A DNA stretch of 36,434 bases from a virus: positions 1 to 36,434 of the IMG/VR virus record IMGVR_UViG_3300030106_006127; one strand, 5' to 3'. The notes beneath the pieces were generated by a model, which saw nothing but the letters and a program-made list of their open reading frames with translations, did not search any database and was not told the DNA's origin. Shown piece after piece: positions 894-21,047 of the stretch (position 1 is its first letter; the number at the start of each line of letters is the position of its first letter). Both the position numbers and the translations under genes were made by a program.

Positions 894-1520
894 ATGGCGA
901 GCGAGGTAGGGATCTGCAATATTGCATTACAGCTTATAAAGCACAGCAAACAAATAACCTCATTAACCTCTGGTACAAAAGAAGCCAACGCCTGCGAAAT
1001 TGTATATGACGAGCTCAGAGACCTCTGCCTCGATATGCATCACTGGAACTTCGCCACGCGCAGGGTCGAGCTCGCCCAACTGGCGGCGGACCAAGCTCCG
1101 GCATTTGAGTGGGACCACGCATACGGGCTACCAGCGGATTTCATCCGCGTTATCAGCGTCCATGAGCACGATCACGGCGACGACAACATCCCTTACAAAA
1201 TAGAAGGTGATCAGATCCTGACCGACGCAGACGAGCTGTATCTACGCTACGTGGCGCGGGTCGAGGATCCGAACAAGATGCCACCTACATTCCGGAGGGC
1301 GTTGTCAAAGATTATAGCGGCACAACTGGCGACCGCCTTATCTCAAAGCACGTCGCTTGGCAAAGAGCTGTTTGCCCAATTCCATGATCAAGATTTGCCG
1401 TTCGCAAAAAGCACCGACGCTATTCAAAACTACGCAGACCAGCTTCCCGAATCCGACTTCATCATGGCACGGTTCGGTGGGCGGGCTACTTATGAGCCAG
1501 GGGATCCGCCCGCCTCATGA
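894..1520 (+). CDS. Tail tubular protein A (T7 gp11-like adaptor)
   Basis: The 208-residue product matches the usual length and layout of T7 gp11-like tail tubular A proteins. It opens with EVGICNIALQLIKHSKQITSL, continues with a helix ending in YDELRDLCLDMHHWNFATRR (residues ~42-60), then a YGLPADFIRV segment near 85-95, and a C-terminal helical region (FRRALSKIIAAQLATALSQS, ~140-160). In this family the protein forms the ring joining the portal to the tail nozzle. The stop overlaps the start of tail tubular B (ATGA at 1517-1520), so the two are translationally coupled, as expected for partners needed in fixed proportion. Confidence 0.9.
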   Translation: MASEVGICNIALQLIKHSKQITSLTSGTKEANACEIVYDELRDLCLDMHHWNFATRRVELAQLAADQAPAFEWDHAYGLPADFIRVISVHEHDHGDDNIPYKIEGDQILTDADELYLRYVARVEDPNKMPPTFRRALSKIIAAQLATALSQSTSLGKELFAQFHDQDLPFAKSTDAIQNYADQLPESDFIMARFGGRATYEPGDPPAS

Positions 1521-4225
1521 GCATTCAGACGCAAGTCAACCAGGAAAGTTTTAACGCCGGCGAGTTCGGCGAGCGTATGGCAGCGCGGACGCAGTTTGCC
1601 AAGTATGCCAATGCCGGTGCTCAATACGAGAACATATTACCACTACCGCAGGGCGGTTTTGCCTATCGCCCCGGCACACGTTTTATAGCGGCCGCAAAAT
1701 CAAATGCCGAGCGACCCTGGTTGCTGCCCTTTATCTTTTCTAATATTCAGAGCTACGTGATGTCGTTCTCGACGAACGCCATCCGGTTTTTTAAAGACCA
1801 GGCGCAGATTGTGGCACCGGATATCGGCGCGGCAATCACCAACGGCACCTTCGCTGACAACGTCAGCAACTGGACCGCAGCGGCCGGCTCTCTGACCCAT
1901 GACGCCACAAACGATCGTATGGTGATCTCCGCATCAGGCGGGAGGGCACAACAGTCCGTAACGACCTCGACGGTCGACGTGGAACACGTGCTCCGGTTTG
2001 AGGTGTGTGGTTTAGCCGGCGATAAACTAACGGTACGGGTCGGCAGCAGTGCCGGCGGCTCGCAGCTCCTCGCCGACACCTCGGCGAAGACCGGCTACCA
2101 CATGGTGTCTTTTACGCCCGCGGCCTCTCCGTTTTACGTGGAGTTCCAGAACGACATGGCAAAAACCGTGTCGATCGATAACATCGAGCTCCTGGACAAC
2201 ACACCTATCGAGCTGGTCTCGCCCTACGCCGAGGCAGATCTTCCCAATATTTCTTATGTGCAATCGGCCGACCGCATGTATCTGGCCCTCGGAGGCAGCA
2301 CCCACGTATACCGGCTGGACCGGTTCGGGCATTCATCGTGGTCGTTGACCGAGGTGCTTTTTTCTGACGGGCCCTACTTGGACGAGAACACCACCACCAC
2401 GACGCTGAGCAGCTCGGCCGGCACAGGCCTCGGCGTGACCATTACCGCAAGTGCGGTCACGGGTATCAACGATGATGCGGGTTTCCGAGCAACCGATGTG
2501 GGTCGATTGGTTCGTATTAAAAACGGCTCGGACTTCGGCTTTGCACAGATCACCGCCTTCACTGATACCACCCACGTGACCGCCGACGTGCTGGGCGAAA
2601 GCCTGCCGACGGGCACAACAACCGACTGGCGGCTAGGGGAATATAACGATACCGACGGCTGGCCCAGTGCGGTCAGTTTTATCCAACAACGCATGGCGCT
2701 GGGATCAACCACAAAAGAGCCGCAGAAGTTTTGGCTTTCCGTCTCCGGCGATATTGAAAACTTCGCCGACTCTGACAAGACCGGCGATGTGCTTGATGAC
2801 AGCTCCATCGTCTTTAAGCTGGCAGCCCAGCGGGTCAACACAATTTTGTGGTTTGCCACCAGGAAAAAGCCCATCATCGGAACGCAGGATGGGAACTGGA
2901 CCCTGCGAAGCGACGGCGCCATTCTCAAGCCGAGCGACATCGCAGCCGACTTTGAAGTAACAAGTGGGTGTGCCAAGATCCCACCGATCGAGATCCGCTC
3001 GAGGTTAGTGTTCGCACAGCGCCAGCGTCGCAAGATCGTCGAGTTTGCGGATGTCATTCAATCAAACGGGCTCGAAGGTTTTGATGCGTTTGACCTGACG
3101 CTGCTTAACGACAGAATACTTAAAGACGGTATTATACAGATGGCCTACGCTCAGGAGCCTGACAGCGTCATATGGTGTGTCCGCGGTGACGGCCAGCTCT
3201 CTTGCCTGACATATCAACCAGATCAAGACGTGCTTGGCTGGTCTCGGCAAATTATAGGCGGGACGTTCCACGGCGGAGACGCGGTGGTGGAAAGCGTGGC
3301 GGCGATACCCGGCCAGGACGGTTCGGGGCAGTTTAAATCGAGCGTCGAGCGTGACGAGGTATGGGTCGTCGTCAAGCGTGAGATCAATGGATCAACCACG
3401 CGCAGTATTGAGTGTATCGAAAAACATTTTACCAGCGTCGAGGATTTGCAGGAGGATGCTTTCTACGTCGATAGCGGGCTGACGCTGAACAACCCGGTTA
3501 CCATCACCGCGGTTACTAAAGCCAACCCTGGTGTTGTGACGGCTGCAAACCACGGCTTCAGTAACGGCGACGATATCCGCATCACCCGCGTCAAAGGCAT
3601 GACCGAGTTAAACAACACCAGCTTTAAGGTGGCCGGCGTCACGACCAACACGTTTCAGTTGCAGGACACTAGCAGCGTCAACCTGAACACCACGGGCTTC
3701 TCGACCTACAGTGCGGGAGGCGAGGTTCGTAAAAAAGTTAGCAGCGTCTCCGGCCTGACGCATCTCGAAGGTGAGACCGTGCAGGTATTAGCCGACGGTG
3801 CGGTGCAAAACACCAAAACCGTGAGCAGCGGCGCCATAACATTAGACAGTGCTGCCAGCCAGGTGCATGTTGGTTTGGGCTACACACGAAAGTTTAAGAG
3901 CTTGAAGCTGGCGTTTGCTGCCAAGGATGGCACAACCATAGGCCGGCCCAAATCCATCGCCGATGTAATACTGGTGGTCATGGAGACCGGCGAGGGAGCG
4001 TTATCCCTTGCAACGATCGAGGACGGCATACAGGGCACGAGCACCGAGCTTGACCTGCGGTCCGCCAACGACATCGACGGAGACCCGGTAAATTTCTTCT
4101 CAGGCGAACTGAGGCTGGGCGTGACCGCAGGATTTGATGACGATATCCGCATACTGCTATCCGGAACTGCGCCGCTGCCTGCCACTATTCTTGCAATGTC
4201 ACCGGAGCTCGAGACCAGCTCATGA
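1517..4225 (+). CDS. Tail tubular protein B (T7 gp12-like nozzle) with inserted domains
   Basis: The 902-residue product starts with a signature typical of this family: NQESFNAGEFGERMAARTQF, then a GGFAYRPGTRF segment by residue 55 and the PFIFSNIQSYVMSF strand. T7 gp12 forms the tail nozzle. Residues ~105-230 form an extra beta-rich block (NGTFADNVSNWTAAAGSL to FYVEFQN) resembling a carbohydrate-binding jelly roll placed in the N-terminal part. Residues ~658-740 (NNPVTITAVTKANPGVVTAA, HGFSNGDDI, TNTFQLQDTS) resemble the small beta domain often labelled E1-FCCH in phage tail proteins. It overlaps the upstream and downstream genes by ATGA. The core call is secure; the two insert assignments are by eye. 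Confidence 0.9.
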   Translation: MSIQTQVNQESFNAGEFGERMAARTQFAKYANAGAQYENILPLPQGGFAYRPGTRFIAAAKSNAERPWLLPFIFSNIQSYVMSFSTNAIRFFKDQAQIVAPDIGAAITNGTFADNVSNWTAAAGSLTHDATNDRMVISASGGRAQQSVTTSTVDVEHVLRFEVCGLAGDKLTVRVGSSAGGSQLLADTSAKTGYHMVSFTPAASPFYVEFQNDMAKTVSIDNIELLDNTPIELVSPYAEADLPNISYVQSADRMYLALGGSTHVYRLDRFGHSSWSLTEVLFSDGPYLDENTTTTTLSSSAGTGLGVTITASAVTGINDDAGFRATDVGRLVRIKNGSDFGFAQITAFTDTTHVTADVLGESLPTGTTTDWRLGEYNDTDGWPSAVSFIQQRMALGSTTKEPQKFWLSVSGDIENFADSDKTGDVLDDSSIVFKLAAQRVNTILWFATRKKPIIGTQDGNWTLRSDGAILKPSDIAADFEVTSGCAKIPPIEIRSRLVFAQRQRRKIVEFADVIQSNGLEGFDAFDLTLLNDRILKDGIIQMAYAQEPDSVIWCVRGDGQLSCLTYQPDQDVLGWSRQIIGGTFHGGDAVVESVAAIPGQDGSGQFKSSVERDEVWVVVKREINGSTTRSIECIEKHFTSVEDLQEDAFYVDSGLTLNNPVTITAVTKANPGVVTAANHGFSNGDDIRITRVKGMTELNNTSFKVAGVTTNTFQLQDTSSVNLNTTGFSTYSAGGEVRKKVSSVSGLTHLEGETVQVLADGAVQNTKTVSSGAITLDSAASQVHVGLGYTRKFKSLKLAFAAKDGTTIGRPKSIADVILVVMETGEGALSLATIEDGIQGTSTELDLRSANDIDGDPVNFFSGELRLGVTAGFDDDIRILLSGTAPLPATILAMSPELETSS

Positions 4226-4692
4226 AAATACGCCAGGTGGATTTTGGCCGGCAGGAGGACGTGCGCGACATGCTGGAGGGCGCCTGGAATTTTGTTGGCC
4301 GCATGGGCACGAACACCGAGTGGATGCCGGACAGCCGTGAAGAATTCGAGGATCATTTGCTGGAGCTTTTTAAAAACCCGGCGTTTGAGATCTTTGGGGT
4401 GGAGCACGAAGGCAAGGGCGTCGCCGGTATGGCGGTCGTCGCTTGTCCGTTCATGTGGAACCCGAAGTATTACTCGGTCGAGGAAGTATTCTGGTGGGCC
4501 TCTCCGGCAGCACCGCCGCACGCCGCTCTGGGGTTGCTCCGGCACGTCGTCGCCTGGGCGCGGGCACAGGCGGTCGACAGTAAAGTGGTTATCAGTATGA
4601 AGAGCCTGGAGACATCACCGCCAGGGGTAAGACATATCTACAATCGAATGGGTTTGACCCGACAGGAATTTACACACATGGGAGTTATTTAA
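4222..4692 (+). CDS. GNAT-fold acetyltransferase-like protein of the tail region
   Basis: The product has 156 residues and starts at an ATGA overlap with tail tubular B. The central part (EIFGVEHEGKGVAGMAVVAC near 52-72, then SVEEVFWWASP near 88-98 and a helix ALGLLRHVVAWARAQ) follows the strand-strand-helix order of GNAT enzymes, including the family's 'E-x-F-W' strand. Such genes are frequent between tail and internal virion genes in short-tailed phages, where their substrate is unknown. The acetyl-CoA pyrophosphate loop, normally R/Q-x-x-G-x-G/A, is not recognisable; the equivalent stretch reads SPAAPPHAALG. The protein may therefore be a structural relic or have an altered donor. Confidence 0.7.
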   Translation: MKIRQVDFGRQEDVRDMLEGAWNFVGRMGTNTEWMPDSREEFEDHLLELFKNPAFEIFGVEHEGKGVAGMAVVACPFMWNPKYYSVEEVFWWASPAAPPHAALGLLRHVVAWARAQAVDSKVVISMKSLETSPPGVRHIYNRMGLTRQEFTHMGVI

Positions 4693-4694
4693 AA

Positions 4695-5159
4695 ATGACA
4701 CTCACCGCAACACAGATGGCAATCATGTCCGCGATTTCGACGGTGGCTAAAATAGGCTCGAGCTTTATGCAGTCGTCCGGTCAGAGTGCCGGTGCCGGGA
4801 TGCAGGCTGAGCTGGCTCGCAGGCAGGCGGCTCGTGAAGCACAGATCGGTGCGATGCAGGCGGCACAACAACGTGAGCGAAACAAACGAATTGAAGGCAC
4901 ACAGCGTGCCCTGCTCGCCGGCGCCACGGGCGGCGATACGTCCACCGGATCGGCGCTATTGGTGCAGCCAGAGCTTGCCGAGGAGGGCGAGTTCTCTGCC
5001 CGCATACTCGAGAATAACGCTGCCGCTCGCGTCAACGCAGCCCGAGCAGAGGAAGTGCTGCAGCGATCGCGCATGAACCAGTTTAACCAGGCCGGCCTGA
5101 TGCGAGCAGGTAGTGCGCTTCTCAAGGGCGGATCGCAGATAGCGCAGCTCAAGTTTTAA
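4695..5159 (+). CDS. Internal virion protein (T7 gp14-like position)
   Basis: The product has 154 residues, is rich in Ala, Gln, Arg and Met, and is almost wholly helical. The N-terminal 30 residues (MAIMSAISTVAKIGSSFMQS) are weakly hydrophobic and glycine/serine-rich. A charged helix follows (ELARRQAAREAQIGAMQAAQ), with the motif GATGGDTSTGSALLV near residue 80 and a C-terminal helix ending in GGSQIAQLKF. This matches the small internal core proteins of T7-like phages, which leave the capsid first and enter the outer membrane to start DNA ejection. A GGGAG ribosome site lies about ten bases upstream. Its place just before two much larger internal proteins follows the gp14-gp15-gp16 order. 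Confidence 0.75.
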   Translation: MTLTATQMAIMSAISTVAKIGSSFMQSSGQSAGAGMQAELARRQAAREAQIGAMQAAQQRERNKRIEGTQRALLAGATGGDTSTGSALLVQPELAEEGEFSARILENNAAARVNAARAEEVLQRSRMNQFNQAGLMRAGSALLKGGSQIAQLKF

Positions 5160-5172
5160 ATAGAGGTAACGA

Positions 5173-6909
5173 ATGACTAAACTTCCCACCGCTGCCGATG
5201 TAATAGGCCGTGTGCAGCCTACGTCTGCGCCTCGTGTCACCGTGCCTCGTGACGCTTTTCCGGATTACACGGACGTTACCAGGGAGCTGACGGCGGAGGT
5301 CGATAGTTTCCTGCTCAAGCAGAAAAAGGCGAACGACGAGACCGAGGCGCAGGACCTATCAAACCAGTTCAATACCAAGGCTCGCCAGTTGCTGATCGGG
5401 AACGAAAAGGATCCAGGTGACCCAGATTATGAGCCTGGGTATAAATCTTATAAGGGCAAAACAGCCCTGGAGCGGCGGGCCGAGTACGAAAAGAAACTCG
5501 AAGATTTCAGGAAAGAACTGCTTACCAAGACCACGAACAATACTGTCCGCCGCACTCTGAACCGTGCTCTAGATGCGCGGACCGCACGGTTTCAAACGTC
5601 TACAGGCACACATTTTAACGATCAACGCAAAGCGTATCGGAAGACCACATTTGAGGCGACCAACGCCGAAGCAACCGAGAGCGCCATTGCTGACCACCTG
5701 GATCCTTCACACATCGACGATATTTATAACAACACTTTCAAGTATTATTCTGATCAGGGCTTTTCCCCGAAAGCGGCTCAAAGTATTGCTGAAGAGCAAC
5801 GATCAAAAGCCATCGCTAGTGTTATTTTTTCGCTGTCGGGTACAGACGCGAAAGCAGCACAAGAGTATATGGACGCGCAATCTAAAGCAGGTCGTATCGA
5901 CCTCGATGTCCTGGCCGCAGTCAAAACAAAGGTAAAAACGTCGCTCATGCGAAATGCGAGCATGGAAAAAACCGCTGAGATATTTGCAAAGTATCCAAAC
6001 CATGCAGACGCGATAAAGAGGTTGGACGAGGCACAAAAAATACCAAATGAAGAAATTCGAGAGGCGACCATAAAACGTATCGGCGCCCGTGATTATAGAA
6101 CTAAAACTGCAATGGAAATAAGCCGAAAATCGCAATACGAGGCTAATTTAAAAGCAATCACTCAAGATGGAAAAGACCCGGCTGATCTAGATACGTCCAA
6201 CCTAAGTGTGACCGAAACAAATAATCTCAATAAAGCACACCAGGCTCGTATGAATGCCAATGCCGGATTCGGTAAAGCCGATGACCCGACGGCGCTTGAA
6301 GCCATCCACAAGGCGATGGAACGCAATGAAGATATGAGAGTATTCGCCCTGGAAACCTTAAAAAAGAAACTCACACGCAAAACATACGACAAATACTTTC
6401 TACACCGTTCCCGCCTGTTGGCAAACGATCAAAAAGCTATAGCGGATGGTAAGATTTATGGGCTGGGTAATACCGAAGCCGATAAGACGGTCGACCAGAT
6501 GAAGCTCAATACTACTAAATCGAAAGCGCTGAAGGGCGCTTTAAAAATCTCTCTTAAAGATTTTGTCGACGACTTCAGAGAAGAAAATCAGGGCCGATAC
6601 CCCAATCGTGAGCTCATAAAAAGGCACATCGCCAAGCAGACGCTGACGGTTGATTTTGGCCTTTTTAGTACGCAGAGAGATGAAATGCGCGTTTATGCTG
6701 AACAACGCATGAAGCCATTTAGTATCGAGAATTACGATGAACCGTTGGTTCAAAAACAGATTGCAGAGGCTACAGGCTACAGACCCCAGGATGTTGCAAA
6801 AATCATATCGGCTCTGGAGAGATATCGACGGCCAATCACGATCGATCACATTACCGCTGTTTATAATTTATCGAGACGTGCGGCACGCAACGAAGAGGTT
6901 GACGATTAG
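5173..6909 (+). CDS. Internal virion protein (T7 gp15-like position)
   Basis: The 578-residue product is strongly charged and mostly helical, with long Lys/Glu/Arg coiled-coil stretches (e.g. EYEKKLEDFRKELLTKTTNN near 97-116) and no membrane segment. The N-terminus is proline-containing and extended (LPTAADVIGRVQPTSAPRVT), a common pattern in phage ejection proteins. The ribosome site GAGGTAACGA is well placed. Length and order match the second T7 internal core protein, which with its neighbours forms a channel across the cell envelope during DNA entry. The stop codon directly abuts the start of the giant gene, so translation of the pair is probably linked. The 3' half is visibly more A/T-rich than the flanking genes. 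Confidence 0.7.
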   Translation: MTKLPTAADVIGRVQPTSAPRVTVPRDAFPDYTDVTRELTAEVDSFLLKQKKANDETEAQDLSNQFNTKARQLLIGNEKDPGDPDYEPGYKSYKGKTALERRAEYEKKLEDFRKELLTKTTNNTVRRTLNRALDARTARFQTSTGTHFNDQRKAYRKTTFEATNAEATESAIADHLDPSHIDDIYNNTFKYYSDQGFSPKAAQSIAEEQRSKAIASVIFSLSGTDAKAAQEYMDAQSKAGRIDLDVLAAVKTKVKTSLMRNASMEKTAEIFAKYPNHADAIKRLDEAQKIPNEEIREATIKRIGARDYRTKTAMEISRKSQYEANLKAITQDGKDPADLDTSNLSVTETNNLNKAHQARMNANAGFGKADDPTALEAIHKAMERNEDMRVFALETLKKKLTRKTYDKYFLHRSRLLANDQKAIADGKIYGLGNTEADKTVDQMKLNTTKSKALKGALKISLKDFVDDFREENQGRYPNRELIKRHIAKQTLTVDFGLFSTQRDEMRVYAEQRMKPFSIENYDEPLVQKQIAEATGYRPQDVAKIISALERYRRPITIDHITAVYNLSRRAARNEEVDD

Positions 6910-9900
6910 ATGGCAGAACTCGACGATCTAGACCTAGACTTTAACGCAGCGGCACAGACGCTGGGCGAGGCTGATGACAACAACAACGTGCTCGACCTGG
7001 AGGGCGCGGCCCGTAATCTGAACAAATCACAGGCGGAGACAATCCTCGACGCTGTCGAGACCGAAGAGGTCGACCCTGACGTTGTGAAAGATCAACGCGC
7101 CGCAGCGCAGGAACTTAATGCTCCGGTCGAGGTTATCGAGGTTGATTTTGATGCAGCGGCCCGCGAGCTTAAACGCCGCCGCCGCAATGATACGCTGCAA
7201 GATCATCCCGCCACGCAAGATTTTCTAAGCAATCCCCCCAACGCGAAGATTGCCAGCGATGATGTTGCCGGCCTGTCGCGCATCGAGGACCTCCACAAAA
7301 AATCGTTCAGCGAAAAAACAGACATTATATTTAACGATCCAGTTAGCCGTTTAATCCGTGCGCCTGTCGCGGACTTTATTGGGTTTGGTGGTTCAGCGCT
7401 GGAAGGTATCGAGACCATCAGCGATGCGTTTGCAGGCTTAATTGATATATCTCCGGACGAGCAGGACCCACCGACAATCGGCGATATGATGTCGCCTAGG
7501 GCCCTCCTGATGCAGGGTCTATTAAAAGTTTTGCGCGAGACAGGCATGGACGTGCCCGAAACGCCAGGCGAAACTGTCCTGCAGACCACGACAATGACCG
7601 GCGAGGCGTTAAGTAAAGCCAGCGAAGCACTGAATATAGAAGACCGTTCTTTTGGTGAGGATGTCGCTGGTGCCCTCGGCCAACTGACTGCCCAGGTGGG
7701 CGCAACACTTCTCAACCCATTTCTAGGGATCGGCACCCTGGTGACGTCGGGCGCGACCGAGACGGAAAACATTATTGAGGAAATAAAGAAAGAAGGTAAG
7801 AAGCCGCGGTACGGGGAAACCGGCGAGCGGTTAGCCATACTAGGCGGTGCCCTGGTCACGGCCGCCGCGGAAAAGATTGGTCTGGACCTTCTCCTCAAAC
7901 GCGCACCGCCAGGCCTGAAAAACCGAGCAGCACGCTACGTGGCGGACAAGCTGATTGCCGGCGGCATCGAAGCAACGGAGGAGGGCGTCGAAGCTGCTCT
8001 CCGTGATTTCATTATCAGGGTTGGCGTCGATGAAGAGCGTGCCATCTTAGAGGACTTTACAGCCCGCGAAGCGGGTGTTGCCGGCACGGCCGGTGCTATC
8101 TTCCGCACCGTATTAGGCATCCGGTATGCCAAGACCAACCAGGAAAAATCAGCCGAGATGCTGGACACAGTGCGTGATGATATTTTGCGCCAACGTAGTC
8201 CAGAGGCTTTTGATCAGTTTTTCCAGAGCCTGGCCGACCGCGAAGGCGAGCCTAATGTGTTGCTGTCGGCCGAACCCATGGTCGAATACCTGGTCGGTCA
8301 GGGCGAAAACCCTGTCGAGTTCTTCCAGGAGCTTGGTGTCGACGAGAAATCCATGACTGTGGCGTATGAGAGCGGCGGCGATATCCAAGTGCCGGCCGGC
8401 AGCTTCTTTACAAAAATGGCCGACAACCCCTATCGCGATGAGGCTCTTTTAAATATCCGCGAGGGATCCGGTGCGCCTACGGTCGCCGAGATGGAGCTGC
8501 AGAGCCAGGAGGCGCAGGAGCGCTTAACCAAAGTGCTCGAGGAGATGGACAGCGAGGACCAGAAAGAGATTAATGGATCCATCAACCGTGTTCGTGAGCG
8601 TTTCAAACAAGACGCAATTGTGGCAGGACAGACAAAACCCGAGGCCGACAGCGCGGCGGCTGTATGGGATTCCACCTTTCGCACAGCGCTGGACGCCTAT
8701 GCCAACGATCCAAACCGCACCAGGCCTTTGCAGGAGATAGCACGGGATCTCGAGGAAAATGTTTTCAATGTGCGTACCAGAAAGATACAGTTCGCCGAGC
8801 GTGGCGAGCCGTTAGAGCAGACCCCCCAGCAACAGCGCCAGAGATTTAGAGATACGCTGTCCGACGACGTGGTGGAGAAAGTTGTTACTGCCGCTAACGC
8901 GGAAGCGACAGAGCGCATAGAGCTTGGCGTTGAATCCGATCTTTTTGACACTTTTGACATCGATCAGATCATCAGGGATGAGCTGAACCTAGCTGTCGAG
9001 CAGGATGGATTTGAAGCGTATGGTAGACTGGATGCCGCTAATGTGGTTCTTCCAATGGACGCAGCAACCGGTGACCGGATACCAATAGAATCGGCGATTG
9101 GCAACGCCATCCTCTATTTTCCAGACGGCAGCCAAAGGGACGGCTGGAAGGAAGACGCAAAAGACGATTTTGAAATTGATATTGTAAACCTTGAGCGCAA
9201 CCCGGACGGCACAGTCAATAACGACGAGAGTTTCTTTGAAGTTGTACCAAAGAATATAAATGAGATGGCTCGCCGGTATGCTGATGACAGCATTGCGGAG
9301 AGCCAGGTCGATACGATTGAGGACGCGCTGAACCACGAGGATCATCTGGTTCGTGCGAAGGCGTTCGGTACTCTCCTGGACGAACTCGGAATAGACTACT
9401 ACACGGACGGTTCATTAGTAGCCTCGTTCTATTATTATGTAGGGACCGGCACGTATGATCCGGATCTTGAAGAGTATACCGAAGACATAAAGATCCGTTT
9501 TGCTGATCACGGAAGACAGTCTAACAACCATGCTACTTCCGACTTTAATGTCTACGATAACGGCTACGACACAGCTATAGATGCAATAAACTTTATCCTC
9601 CGCGACCGTGGGATGATGGAGGCCCAAGAGACGTTCCAGGAAGTCGACACCTCCGACGCTAACATTCTCCACCAAACCATCAACGACGCAGCCGGCAAAC
9701 CGCTTGCTGTTGTACACAATATCTCGGAAGAAAAGCTCCGCCACGCCTTTAAGATGGGCGGGCTACCGGTGCCGTCCCTCGCAATTATTGACGCAAACCA
9801 GCGCTTTGAAAGTTTCGGCGAGATACAGCTCGTTGGATCACCTAGGCTGGTCGATCCACGGGCATCACGACGAAACAGAGTATTTGACGCCGACGTCTAT

Positions 9901-12900
9901 TCGACCCGTTATCCAAGCGGCGACATTGAGCGCACCGTGGATGGTGATGCCGCGGATGCTGCTCAGGTGGAGCTCGACGCTCTCGCAGAAGAGATAGGCA
10001 GGGGTGCGTATCGACCGGGGTGGTTGAAAGAGACATTATCTGATACCGGCACAAAGTTTTTAAAAGGCGAGCTACCTATACAAGTAGCTTTTCTACGATC
10101 TATTGGAGACAAGACGCGGTACGAAGCGACAACAACAACCTACGGAGCAACCGACGAGGCCATCGAAGGAAGAGAAGGCGAGTTCAATCAATTCATCGAA
10201 GACACTTATGGCTCCCTCATTACCAAAGAGCGCATACTAGATAAGATTACGGACACCGGTCGTAAGTATCTCCCCCATAACCTCGACAACGTCGTTAAAA
10301 TTATGAAACGCGACCTGCGTGGCGGAGAGAAATTTACCTATGGCGTTGGTACTATACGAGCCCAGGCTGCAAAAGAATTCCAAGGCCTTCGCGATATAAA
10401 AGACGCACGCGATCGAATTGTTACCGAAGCCGACATGCAAGCTTTCAAGGACGACACGGACGATGCTTTCGGAGAACTAGCTCAAGAGCTCACAGCGTTT
10501 TATTCGGGCGATCCGAATTCTTTTGGTTATCTCGATGTTGTTGTCGAGATGCTCTCGGACTTTGCACGCCGCGGCGAGAGTGCGGTAGAGGACAGCGGTT
10601 TTGAGAACGTCAGCGACGAGGCAAAACAAAACATTGTCGACTTCCTCGCTAATCTACGCGAGGCACCAACAGAATATTTTGAAGCGAAGATACAGCGAGC
10701 CGTTAGTATTGACGAGTTCGAGGGTGCTATTGTCGAGCCGGAAACACCGCAGGATATTCGAGACGCGCTAGAGGATGCCGGGCTGCGTGTCGTCGAGGCA
10801 TTTGGTGAAAAAAGTGAGGCGTTACAGGAATTTTTCTCGCAGGAGCTTTTCCAAGACGAACCGCGTTTTCAGGATACGCATAGAAACGATGATCGCGTGG
10901 AGCGCGATAAGAACAAACATGGGCTGATGCCTTACATCCGCGACTACTCGGAGAGCGAGCCAACCCGCGAAGGCAAACCCATTGTCATGAAATCAAACAA
11001 TAATAATGCAACCTCGGAACTCGGAAAAGTCGATGAGGTGCTGAACGCAAATCCAGACGCGCATACTTCCGTGGATGCCTGGAAAAAAATGATGGCGGAT
11101 GCCTACGTTACACAAGACGTGCCGATCCCGCCGTATCGATTTATTGAAGAAATAAACACGGATGGCATTGTCCGAAATCTCTCACGTTTGACGGCAGGCC
11201 AAATTAATGATGCTGACGAGGGTTTTAAAAACGCACGCGAGTTTCGCCAGGAGTATATATCCGGGCGCCTCGGCGTCGAGACCACCGGTAAATTGTTTAT
11301 GTGGTCGTTCTTATCTCGAGGCGTCAGCCCCTACGCGCAGGAAAGTTTGTTCATAGATGCCTTCCCGGAGGCTGATGTCTGGATAACCGCTGCCGCGCAG
11401 CCAGGGTTCGATGTCGATCAAACTGCTATTGATATTGATCTTGGCAGCGGTTCTGAGCTGCAGGCTCGAGAACAGCTCGTCACTCGTGCCAACCTCCAAA
11501 GCTGGAAGGAGACCAACAAGAAACGGAAGAAAGCCGGCAAGCGGGCGCTACCAAAACCAAATGATTTTAGGTTCCGCCGGAATGACGACGGCACTGTCAA
11601 TACAACCTACTCCGAATGGGCAAAGTCTGTTTCACCTAAAGGCAGCGGTCGCCCTGGTGCGGGAGCAACGCATAACCTGAATGCGTTCGGCAAGGACTTC
11701 CTGACAAAGATGTCTACCGATGTCGGAGACGGCACTGGCCGATCGAAGCTGCAATACATCCACGATCTCATGGAGGATCCCAACAGCACCGGCAAGATGA
11801 TCCGACGAGAGTTCGCAAAGATCGGCGAAGGCGTCGGCATCGACAACAAGGTCGTATCGTTCACGCTTCTTGTAGCAGGCTTCAATGATGTCATGGTGCT
11901 CGACCGGGTGCAGTTCAGGCAGCTTTATAACGACGGTCGATACGATGGCATCAACATATATGACGGCTATAAAGAACCCGGTAAGACGGGCTCTGTTACC
12001 GGCTCCGGCCTCGCGAAACAAGGCGACGGCACGCGAGGCATATTGATATACGAAGCATTTGAACGCGCCATTGAAGCGCGGATAGAGGACATATACGCCG
12101 AGCTGGGTCGAGAAGGCGTTGGTTCGGTTGGTCGGTATCATTGGGAAACATGGGTCGCCGACAGCGGACAGGAAGCAAGTCACGGTTCTATAGGCGCTAT
12201 ATTGCCGGACGCTCTCGGCGATAGAGATGCAATAAATAATGTCACGGCGAAGCAAGGGGAGTATGGGTCTTACGCTTACGGCGCACGCTATGGTGTGGAT
12301 GGACAAGGCATTAGTTACTTCCAATACACTACACCGTCTGGTAAAATATTGACGTTCACGGTGCCGCAATTTGTGGAGTTCATGGACGAGATTAAAAAGC
12401 CAAAAAATGGCGTAGTGCCGAAAGATTATAAAGTAACGGAGACAGAAAATGCCCCCTGGTACACGAGTGGAGAAGTCGACAGCAAAGCCCTCGACAAACT
12501 CGCCGAAAACCTCTCGGCAGGCGCGGCTGGAAAAAGAGCGGGAACTGTTCGGCAAGCTGGCAAAGACACGTCTCTTTCCGACAGATTTGCAGCCACTGAC
12601 ACCGAGCTCTATCAAACCCAAACAGTAGATCCCCCCACGGGCATAGGCAGGCTGTATAGCCAGGCACAACGGGCAACCCAATCGCTCCCACAACAAAAAG
12701 CCACTGCCAGTCAGTGGCTTTCGCATTTTAAGAAGAGCGGCGTCAAAGACGACGAGCTGGACTTTGTCGTAGGCCTGCAAGAATTTTTGAACTCACAGAA
12801 AACAATCGACAAGGATGACCTGCTCGCTTTCATCGAGCAGCGCGGCATCAAGCTGGACGAGGTTGAGCTCGGCGGGCCGGACACCGAAAGGCCGGCGTCA

Positions 12901-15900
12901 CTAGAGGCGGCGGGGGAGAATGTAGATCAGGCCCGAGAGCTTAGCAGACTCGAATACAAAAAACTGTCTTCTGCGCTCAGAGTTGTCGACCGTGAGATGC
13001 GGGGCGGGGAATATGCCGATTCAATCATAGGGACGGTCAATATACGTGGACCGTCGCATGTTCAGAAGTTTGAAGACAAAATACCCGGTATTTTTGAAAA
13101 GGCACAAAACTATTACAAGGCGTATCAAAATGTAGATAGAGCTTATGAAAAATACGTAGCTGAATTACAAAAATATGAAGACGCCCAAAATTTATCCGCG
13201 AAATTTGTGAAATTCACAGCACCCGGCGAAAAAATATCACCCGACCGCGAATTTTATTTGACCTTGCCTGCCGACCTCACAGAAGGCAACGCAGCTATTG
13301 ACGACTGGCTAGTTCCGCAACAACATCGCATTAACGATCCGGTAGCCGATGGTCGGCTCGTGGTGCGGATCCGCGCCAATGGTCGTAAACTTCAGGACGG
13401 TAGGCGTGCCCTGTTCATCGAGGAAATACAGGACGATCGTGGTCAGGAGGCTCGCAAAGAGGGCGTCCGCAAGCGCATCCCTGATCTAGAGGCACGACAA
13501 GAGGCATATCGTGAAGCCGTGATCGATGCGCAATTAGTAATGGACGAATATTTCACCGATGAGATAGACATGCGGACATCTGAGCGTCACCTTTATATTG
13601 ATAGTTTGCTCAGGACTGCAGCACGTAATGAAGAAATGGGCGATCGCTGGCTCACAAGTTCAAATTTTCGAGAGTTCGCTTTTACACCGGAAGAGATTGC
13701 GGACGTCGATCGCTTCATTGAGTTGATGGCCACTGAACCTGATGAGGTCAAACTTGGCGATAGTTACTTCCGCGACGGCGTCCCCGACCGCCCGTTCCTG
13801 GGGTCCAACAAGGTCGTACCGCTTGCGTTAAAACGCATGATGATCCAGGCGACAGAAGACGGCGCCGACGCTATCGCGTGGACGTCGGGGGAAATGCAGG
13901 CCGAACGATACGGGGGTTTTTCTCAAGGACGGCGGGGGGACGGTTTAAAGAAATTTTACAACCAGATCGCCACCAACGCGGCAAATAAAATAGGCAAGAA
14001 ATACAAGGCAAAAACCTATGCCGGCGCAATAACTGTCGACCCGGACATTGATCTGAGTGAAGGGAGAGCGGATCTTCTCGATGCGGCCGCGGCCGGCCAC
14101 AACGTCTGGGTTCTCCCGTTGACTGACCAGTTGAAGGAGACGATCCTCGGCGAAGGCCTGCCTATGATGCAGGCGGCCAAAAAGGATGATCCCATGGGAT
14201 CGTTTGATCCCGTTCGTCGTGTCATCAATCTCTTTGAAAAATCAGACTACAGCACCGTGCTCCACGAAAGCGGACACGCATTTGTCAACATACTTGAAAA
14301 CTTAGCCGAACGGGACGACGCGCCTCAACGCATACGGGACAACTACCAGGCTATGCTGGAGTGGGTAGGCGCCGAATCTTCCGCCGACATGGACCTCCGC
14401 ATTAACGGCGATAAAGCACGGGAAAAACAAGAGCGCCTCGCACGCGCTTTCGAGGCGTATCTCATGGAGGGTAAGGCGCCGAGCAACGCCCTACGTTCTG
14501 CGTTCAACCAGTTCAAGAACTGGCTGTCAAAAATCTACAGCAACCTGCGGCAACTCGACGTCACCATGGATGATGAAATCCGTCAGGTGTTTGATCGTAT
14601 GCTGGCGACCGACGCCGAGATCGACGATCTCATAGCCGTCAACGAATTTACAGCGGAAGCCAGCCCGAGCATCTTCGCTATGATGGACATGGAGGAGCGA
14701 GAGAAGGCAGCTTCCCTGCAGATATCGGCGCGAGACCGTGCCCGTGCTGCGGCTGCGCTCGAAAGACAGAAACATGACGCGCTTCTTAAAAGCGAAAAGT
14801 TTGCAGAAGAAACCGATTTCGTTCGTGCTGAGATCACGGATCAAGTTTATTCAGAACAGAAGTATGCCGCTTTCTATTTTCTGACTCGCGGCGAATATTA
14901 CGGCGATCGCGAGACACCGGACGCGCTTCGCGGTAAACGACTATCGCGGTCAAAACTTCTTGAGTTCGGTCTTACAAAAGAGGAGCTCCGGGCACTGCCT
15001 CGAGCAAACGGGAAAAGTGGAAAAGCTCTATACAGTGCAAACGAGGAGGACGCAGAAGATCCTGCAACTCTAGCAGCGTATTTCGCCTACGACACCTCCG
15101 AAGCTCTGGTCGCAGACATGCGGACGATTGTCCTGCCCGAGACCGAGATCGAGCGCCGAACCGCAGAGATCATGGCAGGCCGAGAGCAGTATTCCGACCC
15201 CGCCGAAGACGGCACGCTGCGGAGCATATCCGAGGCGGCGCTGTTCAATGCGGAGCAGGCAGAACGTCTCGAGCTTCAACTAGACGCATTGGCCCGCGAG
15301 GCCGGACAGGAAAAACAAAGCCGCGCATTTTTAAAAGCCGTGGCCGATCGTATGTTTGCGGAGGAGCCAATCGGCGATCTGTTGTCGCAATATAAATTTG
15401 CTGGCGCCAGCCGACGCGCAGCGCGAGCCGCTGAACGGGCCGCTGCTCGTAAAGATTTTCAGAAAGCCTTCATTGAGAAACGTAAGGAAATACTGAACTT
15501 TGAGCTGCACCGTCGGGCGGTGAAAGCAAAAGATGAGGTTGCAAAGGCACGCACTGAACTGAACAAACTGAAGCGTCAGAAAATTGACCCAAAGCGTGTC
15601 GCCGCCGATTACGCGGGGAACGTCAAAGCCCTTCTTAACTTTTACGAGTTCGGGGCTCAAAATAAGACAGGTGAAATCGATACCGCTGCCGCTCAAAACA
15701 TCGCAGATTTTATCCAGAAAAAGCAAGAGAGCAACGCGTCGATAATATTACCCGGCGATTTGATGTCTGTTGTTGGTAAGGACGCGGAGAGCGGTAACCC
15801 GATCCTGGCATTCCGGCAGAAGTTCTGGAAGACAATGACGTTGTCCGAGCTACGAGCCTTGCGTGACCTCACAAGAAATTTGATGAAGCAGGGAAGAGAC

Positions 15901-18114
15901 TCAAGCCAAAACGCAAAAGAAGCCAAAAAGCAACGAGGCCGAGAGCTTGCAGCGAATATTCTAAGCAGTACGAAGAAACGACGCGAACGACCCGAAGACA
16001 AAAAAGATCTACCGCGCAAAGATCTTTTGAAAAAGACGTTTCGTTTTGCCACTTTTGCCGAGCATCGAAAGCTGGAAAGTATGTTGCGCCAGCTTGACGG
16101 GTTTCAAGCAAACGGCCCGATGTGGACCGCAATATTCGACAAGCTCGCAGAGGCCAGTGACAACAAAGCCGTTTTGATCTCGACGCTTTTGAAACGGCAG
16201 GAGGAGATGGGCGACCTTCTAACAGAAAAACAACGCAAGAGCTTTGCAACTGGCGAGGGTGCTGTCGCCATTAAGGCGCTTGGCGGTTTTCAATTACGAT
16301 TGGAAACACGAATGGCCATAGCTCTCAACTGGGGCAGCGAAAGCAGTCGTGAGGCAATCCTCGACGATCAATATCAAAAAGCAAAATACGGCGATCTGTG
16401 GAACGAAACTGCAATTGAAGAAATTTTAGGCACCCTCGACGACAACGCTCTGAACTACATCGAAGCCACATGGAAACTAATCGATAGTTTTTGGGAGAAC
16501 GTCACGCTACCCAACGGCAGGGTTATCAGCGGCGTGAAAACGCTGGAGGAGCGCAACACCGGTATAGCTCCACCCAAGGTGGAACCTGTTTCATTTACTG
16601 TAAACGGTCGGATTATGAGCGGTGGTTACTACCCTTTAATTTACGATAACTTAAAAGACACGCGCGTCCAGAGTGAATCTGAAGACACGATGAAGAGATT
16701 AACTGAAACAGGCGGCTTTGCGAGGGCGCAAACCACCCACGGGCATACAATCGCCAGGATAGGCAGCGGCGGCAGGCCGGTACGCCATGATCTGGCAGTG
16801 ATAAACCAACATCTCGATCAAGTAACGCAGGACCTCACCTATAGGGAGGCAGTGCAAGAAGCCGCGGACGTCTTGCTTAATGCAGACGTCAAGGCTGCCA
16901 TTGAGACGACTATGGGCCGGCCCTTCTACGACAGTATGAAAGAAATCTTAGTGCGGACAGCGACCGGTCAGTTGGCCTCCACCGAGCTGGGACCATTTAA
17001 CAAACGCGTGATGAACGCGAGGATAAATTTTACGACCGCGATTATGGGGCTGAATGTCCGAACAATTCTTACACAACCTCTCGGGCTCAACCAGAGTATT
17101 GCAGAGATTGGCGTCAAAGACGTTGGTCATGGCATTGCTTGGTTCTACACGAGTGAGGGGGAAAAGATAGCTGACCAAGTCGCATATATACATTCGCTCT
17201 CTGCGTATATGGGTGAGCGGGCCAGAACCATGACCCGCGAGCTGGACGACATCGCTAATTCGCTCCAGCGTAAAAATGAGTTTGACAAGATACGCGCCAA
17301 AGGGTTTGCGCCCATGACCTATGTGGACATGGTGGCTGTGGCATACCCGACCTGGTTTGGAGCTTACAACAAAGCGATGCAGGGCCGTGTCGACGGCATA
17401 AATGAATCCGATCAGGTGCAAGCGATTAAATATGCAGATCAGGTTGTCCGCATAACCCAGTCAGCGGGCGGCGCCCAAAACATGAGCATGGTGCAACAGC
17501 GTTCTGAAACGATGAAGCTCATGACCTTGATGTACTCGTATTTTAATTCTACATACCAGTTGCAGGCCGAGGCCTGGGCCAGAGCACGACAGGACGGCTC
17601 GAGCGTACCGCGAGCGATGCTGAAGGGCGACTTCATCGCCCAGACGATGCTGCTTCAATTTTATCCGGCGTTGATGGGGTCAATCGTTTTGGATCTGTGG
17701 CCCGATGACGACGAGCAAGAGGAAGATGGGGTTTTATTTAGCTGGGCAAAATGGTCATTGAAATCCATTTTATCATACACATCGGGGCAGTTTGTATTTG
17801 TTCGCGATTTTGCTGGCTACGCAATCAACCCGCATTTCGGGATTGATCTCACGCCGATGGAAAGTGTGGCAAAATCAGTCGGTCGTGTGCCATCCAAAAT
17901 TGAAAAAGTTATCGAAGAGCCCGGCGTTGTCGAGACGAGTGAGCTGGCGAAGAGTTTGGTTATCGTAGGCGGCCAATTAAAGGGCGTACCTGGCACAAAC
18001 CAAATCGCGAAGATGGGTGACTATTTCTACAAATGGACCTTTGGCGAGCTCAAAACCCCGCCAGATTCTATAGCCGAGGGCGTATGGAAAGCCATTATGA
18101 CCGGCGACAGATAA
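6910..18114 (+). CDS. Giant polyvalent virion-associated protein with HExxH metallopeptidase domain
   Basis: One uninterrupted gene encodes 3,734 residues, about a third of the window. Residues 5-95 hold four copies of a short D-x-x-A-A-x-x-L motif. Hydrophobic, glycine/alanine-rich segments lie near 248-285, 304-328 and 387-407. Blocks known from large polyvalent phage and mobile-element proteins follow: ~807-905, ~935-1002 (VVHNISEEKLRHA, GGLPVPSLAI), ~1580-1765 (YHWETWVADSGQEASHG) and ~2150-2440 (LFIEEIQDDRGQEARKEG, then AIAWTSGEMQAERY at 2321-2334). A gluzincin-like site follows: HESGH at 2452-2456 with a probable third ligand E2515 in RAFEAYLMEG. A charged coiled-coil region spans ~2600-2900. 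The C-terminal block (~3367-3565) is of the type common in such proteins, with a possible membrane segment near 3575-3595. Position equals T7 gp16, so ejection into the host with the DNA is likely. No lytic transglycosylase motif was found. A GAAGAGG ribosome site lies 11 bases before the ATG. Confidence 0.85.
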   Translation: MAELDDLDLDFNAAAQTLGEADDNNNVLDLEGAARNLNKSQAETILDAVETEEVDPDVVKDQRAAAQELNAPVEVIEVDFDAAARELKRRRRNDTLQDHPATQDFLSNPPNAKIASDDVAGLSRIEDLHKKSFSEKTDIIFNDPVSRLIRAPVADFIGFGGSALEGIETISDAFAGLIDISPDEQDPPTIGDMMSPRALLMQGLLKVLRETGMDVPETPGETVLQTTTMTGEALSKASEALNIEDRSFGEDVAGALGQLTAQVGATLLNPFLGIGTLVTSGATETENIIEEIKKEGKKPRYGETGERLAILGGALVTAAAEKIGLDLLLKRAPPGLKNRAARYVADKLIAGGIEATEEGVEAALRDFIIRVGVDEERAILEDFTAREAGVAGTAGAIFRTVLGIRYAKTNQEKSAEMLDTVRDDILRQRSPEAFDQFFQSLADREGEPNVLLSAEPMVEYLVGQGENPVEFFQELGVDEKSMTVAYESGGDIQVPAGSFFTKMADNPYRDEALLNIREGSGAPTVAEMELQSQEAQERLTKVLEEMDSEDQKEINGSINRVRERFKQDAIVAGQTKPEADSAAAVWDSTFRTALDAYANDPNRTRPLQEIARDLEENVFNVRTRKIQFAERGEPLEQTPQQQRQRFRDTLSDDVVEKVVTAANAEATERIELGVESDLFDTFDIDQIIRDELNLAVEQDGFEAYGRLDAANVVLPMDAATGDRIPIESAIGNAILYFPDGSQRDGWKEDAKDDFEIDIVNLERNPDGTVNNDESFFEVVPKNINEMARRYADDSIAESQVDTIEDALNHEDHLVRAKAFGTLLDELGIDYYTDGSLVASFYYYVGTGTYDPDLEEYTEDIKIRFADHGRQSNNHATSDFNVYDNGYDTAIDAINFILRDRGMMEAQETFQEVDTSDANILHQTINDAAGKPLAVVHNISEEKLRHAFKMGGLPVPSLAIIDANQRFESFGEIQLVGSPRLVDPRASRRNRVFDADVYSTRYPSGDIERTVDGDAADAAQVELDALAEEIGRGAYRPGWLKETLSDTGTKFLKGELPIQVAFLRSIGDKTRYEATTTTYGATDEAIEGREGEFNQFIEDTYGSLITKERILDKITDTGRKYLPHNLDNVVKIMKRDLRGGEKFTYGVGTIRAQAAKEFQGLRDIKDARDRIVTEADMQAFKDDTDDAFGELAQELTAFYSGDPNSFGYLDVVVEMLSDFARRGESAVEDSGFENVSDEAKQNIVDFLANLREAPTEYFEAKIQRAVSIDEFEGAIVEPETPQDIRDALEDAGLRVVEAFGEKSEALQEFFSQELFQDEPRFQDTHRNDDRVERDKNKHGLMPYIRDYSESEPTREGKPIVMKSNNNNATSELGKVDEVLNANPDAHTSVDAWKKMMADAYVTQDVPIPPYRFIEEINTDGIVRNLSRLTAGQINDADEGFKNAREFRQEYISGRLGVETTGKLFMWSFLSRGVSPYAQESLFIDAFPEADVWITAAAQPGFDVDQTAIDIDLGSGSELQAREQLVTRANLQSWKETNKKRKKAGKRALPKPNDFRFRRNDDGTVNTTYSEWAKSVSPKGSGRPGAGATHNLNAFGKDFLTKMSTDVGDGTGRSKLQYIHDLMEDPNSTGKMIRREFAKIGEGVGIDNKVVSFTLLVAGFNDVMVLDRVQFRQLYNDGRYDGINIYDGYKEPGKTGSVTGSGLAKQGDGTRGILIYEAFERAIEARIEDIYAELGREGVGSVGRYHWETWVADSGQEASHGSIGAILPDALGDRDAINNVTAKQGEYGSYAYGARYGVDGQGISYFQYTTPSGKILTFTVPQFVEFMDEIKKPKNGVVPKDYKVTETENAPWYTSGEVDSKALDKLAENLSAGAAGKRAGTVRQAGKDTSLSDRFAATDTELYQTQTVDPPTGIGRLYSQAQRATQSLPQQKATASQWLSHFKKSGVKDDELDFVVGLQEFLNSQKTIDKDDLLAFIEQRGIKLDEVELGGPDTERPASLEAAGENVDQARELSRLEYKKLSSALRVVDREMRGGEYADSIIGTVNIRGPSHVQKFEDKIPGIFEKAQNYYKAYQNVDRAYEKYVAELQKYEDAQNLSAKFVKFTAPGEKISPDREFYLTLPADLTEGNAAIDDWLVPQQHRINDPVADGRLVVRIRANGRKLQDGRRALFIEEIQDDRGQEARKEGVRKRIPDLEARQEAYREAVIDAQLVMDEYFTDEIDMRTSERHLYIDSLLRTAARNEEMGDRWLTSSNFREFAFTPEEIADVDRFIELMATEPDEVKLGDSYFRDGVPDRPFLGSNKVVPLALKRMMIQATEDGADAIAWTSGEMQAERYGGFSQGRRGDGLKKFYNQIATNAANKIGKKYKAKTYAGAITVDPDIDLSEGRADLLDAAAAGHNVWVLPLTDQLKETILGEGLPMMQAAKKDDPMGSFDPVRRVINLFEKSDYSTVLHESGHAFVNILENLAERDDAPQRIRDNYQAMLEWVGAESSADMDLRINGDKAREKQERLARAFEAYLMEGKAPSNALRSAFNQFKNWLSKIYSNLRQLDVTMDDEIRQVFDRMLATDAEIDDLIAVNEFTAEASPSIFAMMDMEEREKAASLQISARDRARAAAALERQKHDALLKSEKFAEETDFVRAEITDQVYSEQKYAAFYFLTRGEYYGDRETPDALRGKRLSRSKLLEFGLTKEELRALPRANGKSGKALYSANEEDAEDPATLAAYFAYDTSEALVADMRTIVLPETEIERRTAEIMAGREQYSDPAEDGTLRSISEAALFNAEQAERLELQLDALAREAGQEKQSRAFLKAVADRMFAEEPIGDLLSQYKFAGASRRAARAAERAAARKDFQKAFIEKRKEILNFELHRRAVKAKDEVAKARTELNKLKRQKIDPKRVAADYAGNVKALLNFYEFGAQNKTGEIDTAAAQNIADFIQKKQESNASIILPGDLMSVVGKDAESGNPILAFRQKFWKTMTLSELRALRDLTRNLMKQGRDSSQNAKEAKKQRGRELAANILSSTKKRRERPEDKKDLPRKDLLKKTFRFATFAEHRKLESMLRQLDGFQANGPMWTAIFDKLAEASDNKAVLISTLLKRQEEMGDLLTEKQRKSFATGEGAVAIKALGGFQLRLETRMAIALNWGSESSREAILDDQYQKAKYGDLWNETAIEEILGTLDDNALNYIEATWKLIDSFWENVTLPNGRVISGVKTLEERNTGIAPPKVEPVSFTVNGRIMSGGYYPLIYDNLKDTRVQSESEDTMKRLTETGGFARAQTTHGHTIARIGSGGRPVRHDLAVINQHLDQVTQDLTYREAVQEAADVLLNADVKAAIETTMGRPFYDSMKEILVRTATGQLASTELGPFNKRVMNARINFTTAIMGLNVRTILTQPLGLNQSIAEIGVKDVGHGIAWFYTSEGEKIADQVAYIHSLSAYMGERARTMTRELDDIANSLQRKNEFDKIRAKGFAPMTYVDMVAVAYPTWFGAYNKAMQGRVDGINESDQVQAIKYADQVVRITQSAGGAQNMSMVQQRSETMKLMTLMYSYFNSTYQLQAEAWARARQDGSSVPRAMLKGDFIAQTMLLQFYPALMGSIVLDLWPDDDEQEEDGVLFSWAKWSLKSILSYTSGQFVFVRDFAGYAINPHFGIDLTPMESVAKSVGRVPSKIEKVIEEPGVVETSELAKSLVIVGGQLKGVPGTNQIAKMGDYFYKWTFGELKTPPDSIAEGVWKAIMTGDR

Positions 18115-20300: not shown

Positions 20301-21047
20301 ATGTTAATGCCCATCGTGCAAGGCGGCGCAACAGATTTTGGCACGATCATAACGCTATCATCTGACGTCAACGACTATAACTTAGCGAATGATCTTACCA
20401 ACAATTATTCCTGGAACGGGTCTGACGCCATAGAGGTTGTTCTAAATATCAACTCAGGCGTTACAATATATTCCACGTCGACCGGTACTCCGAGCATCGT
20501 GGTCGATCTCGTAGCCGGCAGCACGCTGACGATCAACAACAGCGGGAACATCGTCGGAAAGGGTGGCGCGGCTCTCGGCGGCCAGCTCTCGACCGGACAG
20601 TCGGGGATTGCGGGAGGTCACGCGATTAGTCTTCAAGACGTGACTGTTGTGGTCAACAACCTAAGTGGCGCAAAAATACAAGGCGGGGGCGGCAGTGCGG
20701 GGTCCGGCGGCGGATCTCGCCACGCAGGAAGTACCGTAGACTCGGAGGGGGTTTGCCAGGATGGGGTGAACCGAATAGGCGGCGCGGGAGGGGCGGGCGC
20801 TGGTGCCACGTCCGCAACGTCCGCCGCTACGACGGGCAGTGCCGGCGCTACCGGCACGGGCGCGGGCGGAGATGGTGGTGATTTCGGAAGCGCCGGAACG
20901 GCCGGCGGTGGCGCGTCGAATTCGGGATGTAAAGTCGTCAACGCGAGTGGCGGACCAGGCGGTGCCGCCGGCAAAGCCATCCATCATGTTAGCTCTGTCA
21001 GTCAGACTCTCAACAATAGTGGCACGATCAACGGAGCAACGACGTGA
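20301..21047 (+). CDS. Glycine-rich Gp38-like tail fibre adhesin
   Basis: The product has 248 residues. The N-terminal half is beta-rich with repeated turn patterns (VVLNINSGVTIYSTSTGTPS, GSTLTINNSGNIVGKGG), as in the attachment domain of T-even Gp38-type adhesins. The C-terminal half is dominated by glycine-rich runs (GGGGSAGSGGGS near 132-143, GGAGGAGAGA, GAGGDGGDFGSAGTAGGG, SGGPGGAAGK). In that family such runs form a polyglycine-helix sandwich whose connecting loops bind the bacterial receptor. It starts one base after the fibre stop, which suits an adhesin mounted on the fibre tip. Two cysteines (in EGVCQDG and NSGCKV) are unusual for this otherwise low-complexity half and could form a disulfide. 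Confidence 0.75.
   Translation: MLMPIVQGGATDFGTIITLSSDVNDYNLANDLTNNYSWNGSDAIEVVLNINSGVTIYSTSTGTPSIVVDLVAGSTLTINNSGNIVGKGGAALGGQLSTGQSGIAGGHAISLQDVTVVVNNLSGAKIQGGGGSAGSGGGSRHAGSTVDSEGVCQDGVNRIGGAGGAGAGATSATSAATTGSAGATGTGAGGDGGDFGSAGTAGGGASNSGCKVVNASGGPGGAAGKAIHHVSSVSQTLNNSGTINGATT

Follow-up and report, generated by a model that had tools for sequence, protein, structure and literature searches.

The polyvalent proteins were described as a class in 2017 by Iyer et al., and processing of such proteins by a zincin was already proposed there (PMC5512222). P1 DdrB is cleaved prior to packaging (PMC5512222). N4 vRNAP, a protein of 383 kDa, is present at 4±1 copies per particle and is ejected; it is laid out as N-terminal domain, cargo, HExxH domain and large helical C-terminal domain (PMC12633501). 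Despite its HExxH domain it is packaged uncleaved (PMC5512222). The T7 gp16-like proteins are mosaic, and a peptidoglycan hydrolase moves between gp15- and gp16-like proteins (PMC8954989). Here we examined how a giant virion-region gene compares with these systems.

The DNA under study (the window) is an IMG/VR virus record of 36,434 bases. It looks like a temperate phage because genes for an integrase and an S24-type repressor accompany its podovirus virion module. Positions 6910-18114 on the plus strand are a single uninterrupted ORF of 3,734 aa with zero stops and a predicted mass of about 416 kDa. An earlier note, made from the letters alone, had placed the gene in the virion region. This was correct: it comes immediately after a phrog_418 gene and a 578-aa gene which weakly matches the phrog_1044 'endolysin' family and sits where BPP-1 has bbp11 (Table 1).

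Table 1. Features of the giant gene and of the virion module of the window (aa numbers refer to the giant protein).
Feature	Positions	Strand	Basis
Tail adaptor, phrog_394 (T7 gp11-like position)	894..1520	+	PHROG match
Tail nozzle, phrog_376 (T7 gp12-like position)	1517..4225	+	PHROG match
156-aa virion-module protein, phrog_1249	4222..4692	+	PHROG match
Internal virion protein, phrog_418	4695..5159	+	PHROG match
578-aa bbp11-position protein, without the transglycosylase region of BPP-1 bbp11	5173..6909	+	PHROG, sequence comparison
Giant virion-region protein, Bbp10 / phrog_9880 family	6910..18114	+	ORF; phrog_9880; tblastn to BPP-1-like phages
Constant N-module (aa 38-592), with LPD22 and hydrophobic segments at aa 263 and 310	7021..8685	+	HMM, Pfam, hydropathy
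L-E-Q (aa 635-637), N-module/payload boundary	8812..8820	+	motif
M1 (aa 921-1320): PBECR5 RNase-like (Pfam aa 928-1102) and linked C-terminal part (aa 1115-1296)	9670..10869	+	Pfam
L-F-Q (aa 1313-1315), M1/M2 boundary	10846..10854	+	motif
M2 (aa 1333-1845), predicted Ogg2-like HhH DNA glycosylase; fold match aa 1412-1758	10906..12444	+	AF2, VIA
K1647, predicted Schiff-base lysine	11848..11850	+	invariant 15/15; aligns with MjaOgg catalytic Lys
D1665, predicted catalytic aspartate	11902..11904	+	invariant 15/15; 18 residues past K1647
L-Y-Q (aa 1900-1902), M2/M3 boundary	12607..12615	+	motif
M3a (aa 1915-1991), small conserved payload domain	12652..12882	+	in 26 other ORF segments
M3b (aa 2140-2422), GNAT-like acyltransferase fold, weak	13327..14175	+	AF2, VIA
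M-M-Q (aa 2419-2421), conserved junction Q ahead of the zincin-like domain	14164..14172	+	family motif
Zincin-like metallopeptidase domain (aa 2423-2570)	14176..14619	+	VIA; CLCA_X seed
HESGH motif (aa 2452-2456)	14263..14277	+	H, E, H positions invariant 77/77
E2515, predicted third ligand	14452..14454	+	invariant 77/77
Constant helical C-module (aa 2571-3734)	14620..18111	+	constant HExxH-to-end length
Most hydrophobic segment (aa 3576-3594)	17635..17691	+	hydropathy

The phrog_9880 profile matched residues 2421-3723 with E=5e-227. By tblastn 42 phage records contain the C-terminal part, Bbp10 of BPP-1 among them; the identity of 22-32% extended over up to ~1,300 aa, and the homologous C-terminal module is ~1,240 aa long. 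The gene order of the window is that of the BPP-1 virion module, i.e. gp11-gp12-internal virion protein-bbp11-bbp10-tail fibre. In the relatives that were fetched the order was tail adaptor, nozzle, small internal virion proteins, a bbp11-type gene and the giant gene, usually followed by a tail fibre or spike. Judged by sequence and gene order, bbp10 of the BPP-1-like temperate podoviruses is the ortholog of the giant gene. Bbp10 of BPP-1 has the same C-terminal ~1,270 aa, the HESGH motif and the constant N-module; however, it comprises 2,052 aa with a small payload whereas the payload of the window protein is ~1,800 aa. The earlier note had the protein replace T7 gp16. This holds for position, as both are the last and largest ejection protein at the same place in the gene order. 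It is wrong in origin because the protein belongs to the Bbp10 family and the transglycosylase of BPP-1 sits in the neighbouring bbp11, where it is annotated; by sequence comparison that region is absent from the 578-aa counterpart in the window. Compared with gp16 the window protein is ~2.8 times the size, gave no useful sequence match and carries no transglycosylase domain. The latter had been noticed before, and in agreement with it no transglycosylase family of Pfam or PHROG matched the giant protein. PADLOC assigned it to no defence family, and neither phmmer with the full protein nor hmmsearch with profile A3 gave a useful match among PDB sequences.

The Bbp10 family is old and widespread. 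A profile scan confirmed at least 576 relatives in viral contigs, and 109 distinct complete ones span 1,822-4,075 aa. The product of an annotated gene of Nostoc phage Nsp-JY18 (29420-41458) has ~4,012 aa. The window protein is thus large, yet not the largest of its family; its kind is known, its load unusual. Likewise, a load of more than 400 kDa per copy, which had appeared unusual for a short-tailed particle, is not so in view of the 383 kDa of N4 vRNAP at 4±1 copies (PMC12633501). A search of the open-access literature for virion proteomics of any Bbp10-family protein gave no result. We infer that a Bbp10-type protein is, very probably, a virion ejection and effector protein which is packaged, ejected and brings its payload into the host.

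How are the proteins of this family organised? The stretch from HExxH to the C-terminus was 1,160-1,425 aa long in the 109 complete proteins (median 1,236, sd 39), and that before HExxH 624-2,881 aa (sd 484); as selection of this set partly required HExxH, a separate count of its presence is less biased. An HMM seeded on residues 1-640 of the window protein identified a constant N-module in 106 of these 109 proteins, ending near residue 600. In the window protein the N-module includes Pfam LPD22 at aa 49-129 (44.6 bits, cut-off 28.6) and hydrophobic segments at aa 263-281 and 310-328. The top 19-residue hydrophobic segment of the protein is at aa 3576-3594, i.e. the membrane-like C-terminal segment seen earlier was found again. 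With the N-module and the C-terminal part both constant the variability lies in the middle. The layout of the family therefore is an N-module of ~600 aa, a payload of less than 100 to ~2,300 aa, and a zincin-like domain with a helical C-module. A tetrapeptide, [FY][DN]x[AS], was considered as an N-terminal packaging signal and dismissed; it occurred within the first 120 residues in only 18 of 109 proteins.

Near-identical proteins exchange only the middle. First, two relatives, L053 and L056, have N-modules with 99% and C-modules with 98% identity; their payloads of 1,526 and 624 aa have little in common. Second, the proteins of the Vibrio phages 1.021.A and PS25B.1, with 97% (N) and 96% (C) identity, contain payloads of 182 and 347 aa, respectively. 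In measurable pairs similarity returned 24-43 residues upstream of HExxH, at the edge of the zincin-like domain. Among 48 payloads Pfam identified ART-PolyVal (21), PBECR5 (10), DUF7178 (8) and GGDEF (4), and more rarely GNAT (3), ddrB-ParB (2), RadC (2), Zeta toxin (1) and others.

This layout is shared with N4 vRNAP. Like the window protein gp50 of N4 has a membrane-type N-terminal domain, a cargo in the middle, HExxH and a big helical C-terminal domain, and its gene comes after two smaller ejection-protein genes. From HExxH to the end N4 vRNAP has ~1,273 aa (3,500-2,228) compared to the Bbp10 family median of 1,236. Unlike N4 vRNAP, the window protein has no T7-type single-subunit RNA polymerase domain according to Pfam. 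When the C-terminal domain of N4 vRNAP was compared with the family using single-sequence and 8-sequence profiles no homology was detected; with hhalign the family and N4 C1/C2 had a probability below 1%, and the top pairing aligned both HExxH motifs (E=0.065). Because of this profile comparison we consider N4 as a likeness in layout, not as membership. With the polyvalent proteins the window protein shares the combination of several unrelated enzymatic domains in one late-gene product and the domain types MPTase, PBECR and LPD; PBECR5, an Ogg2-like fold and a zincin motif are located in one chain next to virion genes.

The payload of the window protein starts with M1. The PBECR5 match (PF18814, aa 928-1102) scored 79.3 bits with a gathering cut-off of 25. 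Polyvalent blocks, which the earlier note had listed, are thus present, namely LPD22 and PBECR5. About a dozen family members have both M1 segments together. Nine aligned PBECR5 members share a His within an H-[NQ]-[IL] context. The unit is predicted to be RNase-like. The same PBECR5 unit is present in the giant proteins of two cultured phages, Acinetobacter phage Ab9 and Cobetia phage Carin1. For folding, M1 and M2 had also been aligned together; this alignment was dropped because MAFFT overlaid the C-terminal part of the PBECR unit on M2.

M2 had no Pfam match. It is present in 16 viral contigs (45-62% identity) within giant proteins of varied make-up, and one Opitutae bin has a relative with 37% identity; plasmids and the annotated phage set yielded no match. 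The M2 profile weakly matched two Ogg2 DNA glycosylases (E 0.22 and 0.6). We then compared an AF2 model of M2 (pLDDT 78, pTM 0.76) with known structures. The Ogg2-type structures TmOgg (3n0u), MjaOgg (3knt) and SsOgg (3fhg) scored VIA Z of 13.6, 13.1 and 12.9, with 202-207 of ~207 residues covered; the top match was 3n0u (Z 13.6, 207 residues, rmsd 3.5). OGG1 and other HhH glycosylases reached Z of 7.5-8.7, DUF2419 8.1, and other folds at most 3.3. Like these enzymes M2 has the catalytic Lys and Asp, and the spacing of K1647 and D1665, 18 residues, is identical to that of K129 and D147 in MjaOgg. Unlike them M2 contains insertions, has ~80-100 extra residues per side and is part of a giant multidomain protein. 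On the basis of the model we assign with high confidence an HhH DNA glycosylase fold to M2; a base-removing activity is a fairly probable prediction. A text search of Iyer et al. (PMC5512222) for a glycosylase was negative.

The Opitutae relative of M2 is part of a 1,532-aa protein (genome-bin contig, 5808-10403) which combines an inorganic pyrophosphatase, a methyltransferase and the M2 relative, and is another polyvalent carrier. Two further M2-bearing giants (L178, 3400-12324; L185, 3202-11697) have L-x-Q-x-x-R ~28 residues ahead of HELAH and HETTH, respectively. Apparently these constitute a related, more distant carrier family.

Of the remaining payload, M3b was modelled. It matched several unrelated GNATs with VIA Z of 5.0-6.3 over ~96-136 residues, a weak match, so that a GNAT-like acyltransferase is only suggested by the model. 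The PBECR5 unit, the Ogg2-like fold and the weak GNAT-like fold, all predictions, are in line with the earlier view of several effectors in one chain.

The HESGH motif and E2515 in the 3,734-aa ORF, first picked out in the earlier note, proved to be real and form a conserved motif of the gluzincin type. H2452, E2453, H2456 and E2515, i.e. residues of the metal-binding type, were unchanged in 77/77 aligned sequences, and E2515 in 16/16 annotated-phage relatives. With this invariance HESGH is not a chance HExxH. Eight relatives apparently devoid of HExxH were judged to result from spurious profile placement by their negative or near-zero domain scores, and the zincin-like domain is present in essentially every family member regardless of cargo. 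In an AF2 model of aa 2140-2600 two short strands and the HExxH helix were predicted with good local confidence (pLDDT around the motif mostly 83-96). When PDB chains were re-aligned by VIA, a zincin catalytic domain of the 4dv8 type was the only family which recurred for aa 2423-2570. The match to 4dv8 (Z 5.3, 99 residues, 19% identity) was under the caution level of the aligner, and the model supports a zincin fold weakly. Z 5.3 is weak alone, yet it agrees with earlier profile work on phage MPTases and Bbp10: residues 700-1000 of Bbp10 served as seed of the zincin-like CLCA_X family in a 2013 study (PMC3650047), and Iyer et al. unified phage MPTases with the zincin which was matched here (PMC5512222). 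As both papers had it, the zincin assignment is not new.

Do the module boundaries have a common feature? An L-x-Q or similar triplet is located at all four payload boundaries of the window protein (Table 1). In 122/133 relatives a Q is found close upstream of an R-G-type pair before HExxH, most often as L-x-Q, and in alignment A6 this junction Q is nearly invariant. Among 20 distinct internal boundary segments 14 contained L-x-Q, whereas 4.2 would be expected if windows were drawn at random from these payloads (p=4e-6; the relatives are not independent); no other tested residue was enriched in this position. After the N-module, L-[FYNEMD]-Q was present in 38/111 versus 15% expected (p=8e-7, the middle letters being picked post hoc). 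The figure for L-any-Q is the fairer one because the narrower set of middle residues was chosen after the junction had been seen. A general excess of L-x-Q was absent from giant proteins outside of the family and from N4 vRNAP. Judged by sequence the L-x-Q motifs are candidate processing sites; they could also be structural linkers. By text search neither the constant-variable-constant rule nor L-x-Q separators appear in Iyer et al. 2017, and a description of the payload domain and of the organisation rule was not found in the open-access literature searched.

We consider as the best explanation, with moderate preference, that this BPP-1-like temperate podovirus uses one of its ejection proteins also to carry injected, self-released effectors. 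The N-module with LPD22 and hydrophobic helices and the C-module with the zincin-like domain and ~1,160 helical residues would package the protein and thread it through the envelope, by analogy to the role suggested for these parts of N4 vRNAP, which has this layout too. The middle is an exchangeable cassette; here it contains the PBECR5 RNase-like unit, the predicted Ogg2-like DNA glycosylase and the GNAT-like domain with L-x-Q in between. Most likely, the zincin-like domain adjoining the cargo would cut the chain at the separators after ejection and free the enzymes, which may then target RNA, DNA and protein of the host at an early stage of infection. Cleavage at the L-x-Q sites by the zincin-like domain is, taken by itself, a tentative proposal. 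Even more doubtful is the extension to the Bbp10 family as a general self-processing effector chassis with fixed ejection ends, an L-x-Q-cutting zincin-like protease and a swappable middle including a DNA glycosylase.

Alternatively, the HExxH domain might be structural or regulatory, i.e. it might serve C-module organisation, packaging or cargo autoinhibition in a protein which stays uncut. N4 vRNAP is a precedent: its C1 domain contains HExxH, the protein is packaged without processing and the C-terminal domain autoinhibits the polymerase; further, the lengths from HExxH to the end (family median 1,236, N4 ~1,273) are close. We regard this as unlikely because three metal ligands and a general base kept in 77/77 sequences are beyond the needs of a scaffold and because L-x-Q separators at module boundaries are left unexplained. 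In another scenario processing precedes packaging, and the particle receives the 416-kDa chain only in part. The zincin-like domain is placed where it could split the payload from the C-module, and P1 DdrB is cut at this stage (PMC5512222); on the other hand, N4 packages a chain of similar size whole, and we consider such a sequence of events as quite unlikely. Very unlikely is a host-directed protease effector which cuts a defence or regulatory protein, the main idea of the earlier note and an option listed by Iyer et al. (PMC5512222) with zincin effectors known in other conflict systems, since in this family effectors swap freely while the zincin-like domain is in essentially all members whatever the cargo. 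That an invariant zincin-like domain adjoins ever-changing cargo favours self-processing over an attack on one host defence protein; it is not proof.

If self-release of injected effectors is correct, BPP-1 relatives inject a polyprotein with a cargo exchanged as whole cassettes, the protease and candidate cut sites are named, and the published proposal of zincin processing of polyvalent proteins becomes directly testable. For hundreds of phages this would provide an effector-finding rule: anything between the N-module and the LxQ-zincin junction. The predicted DNA glycosylase would join the enzymes which phages may deliver ahead of gene expression, as a new effector type.

Some minor observations concern other genes of the window. 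The phage has no obvious virion peptidoglycan hydrolase; an M15 peptidase is encoded further downstream at 24016-24453. Between the integrase and repressor genes a DUF932 protein is encoded (27560-28492, minus strand). The product of 20301-21047, a gene downstream of that for a 711-aa tail protein with a weak carbohydrate-binding match, barely exceeded the cut-off for Pfam GP38, a phage tail-fibre adhesin. The tail nozzle (1517-4225) contains E1_FCCH with a score of 52 bits; this fold takes its name from the ubiquitin-activating enzyme and is also annotated in related Vibrio phages.
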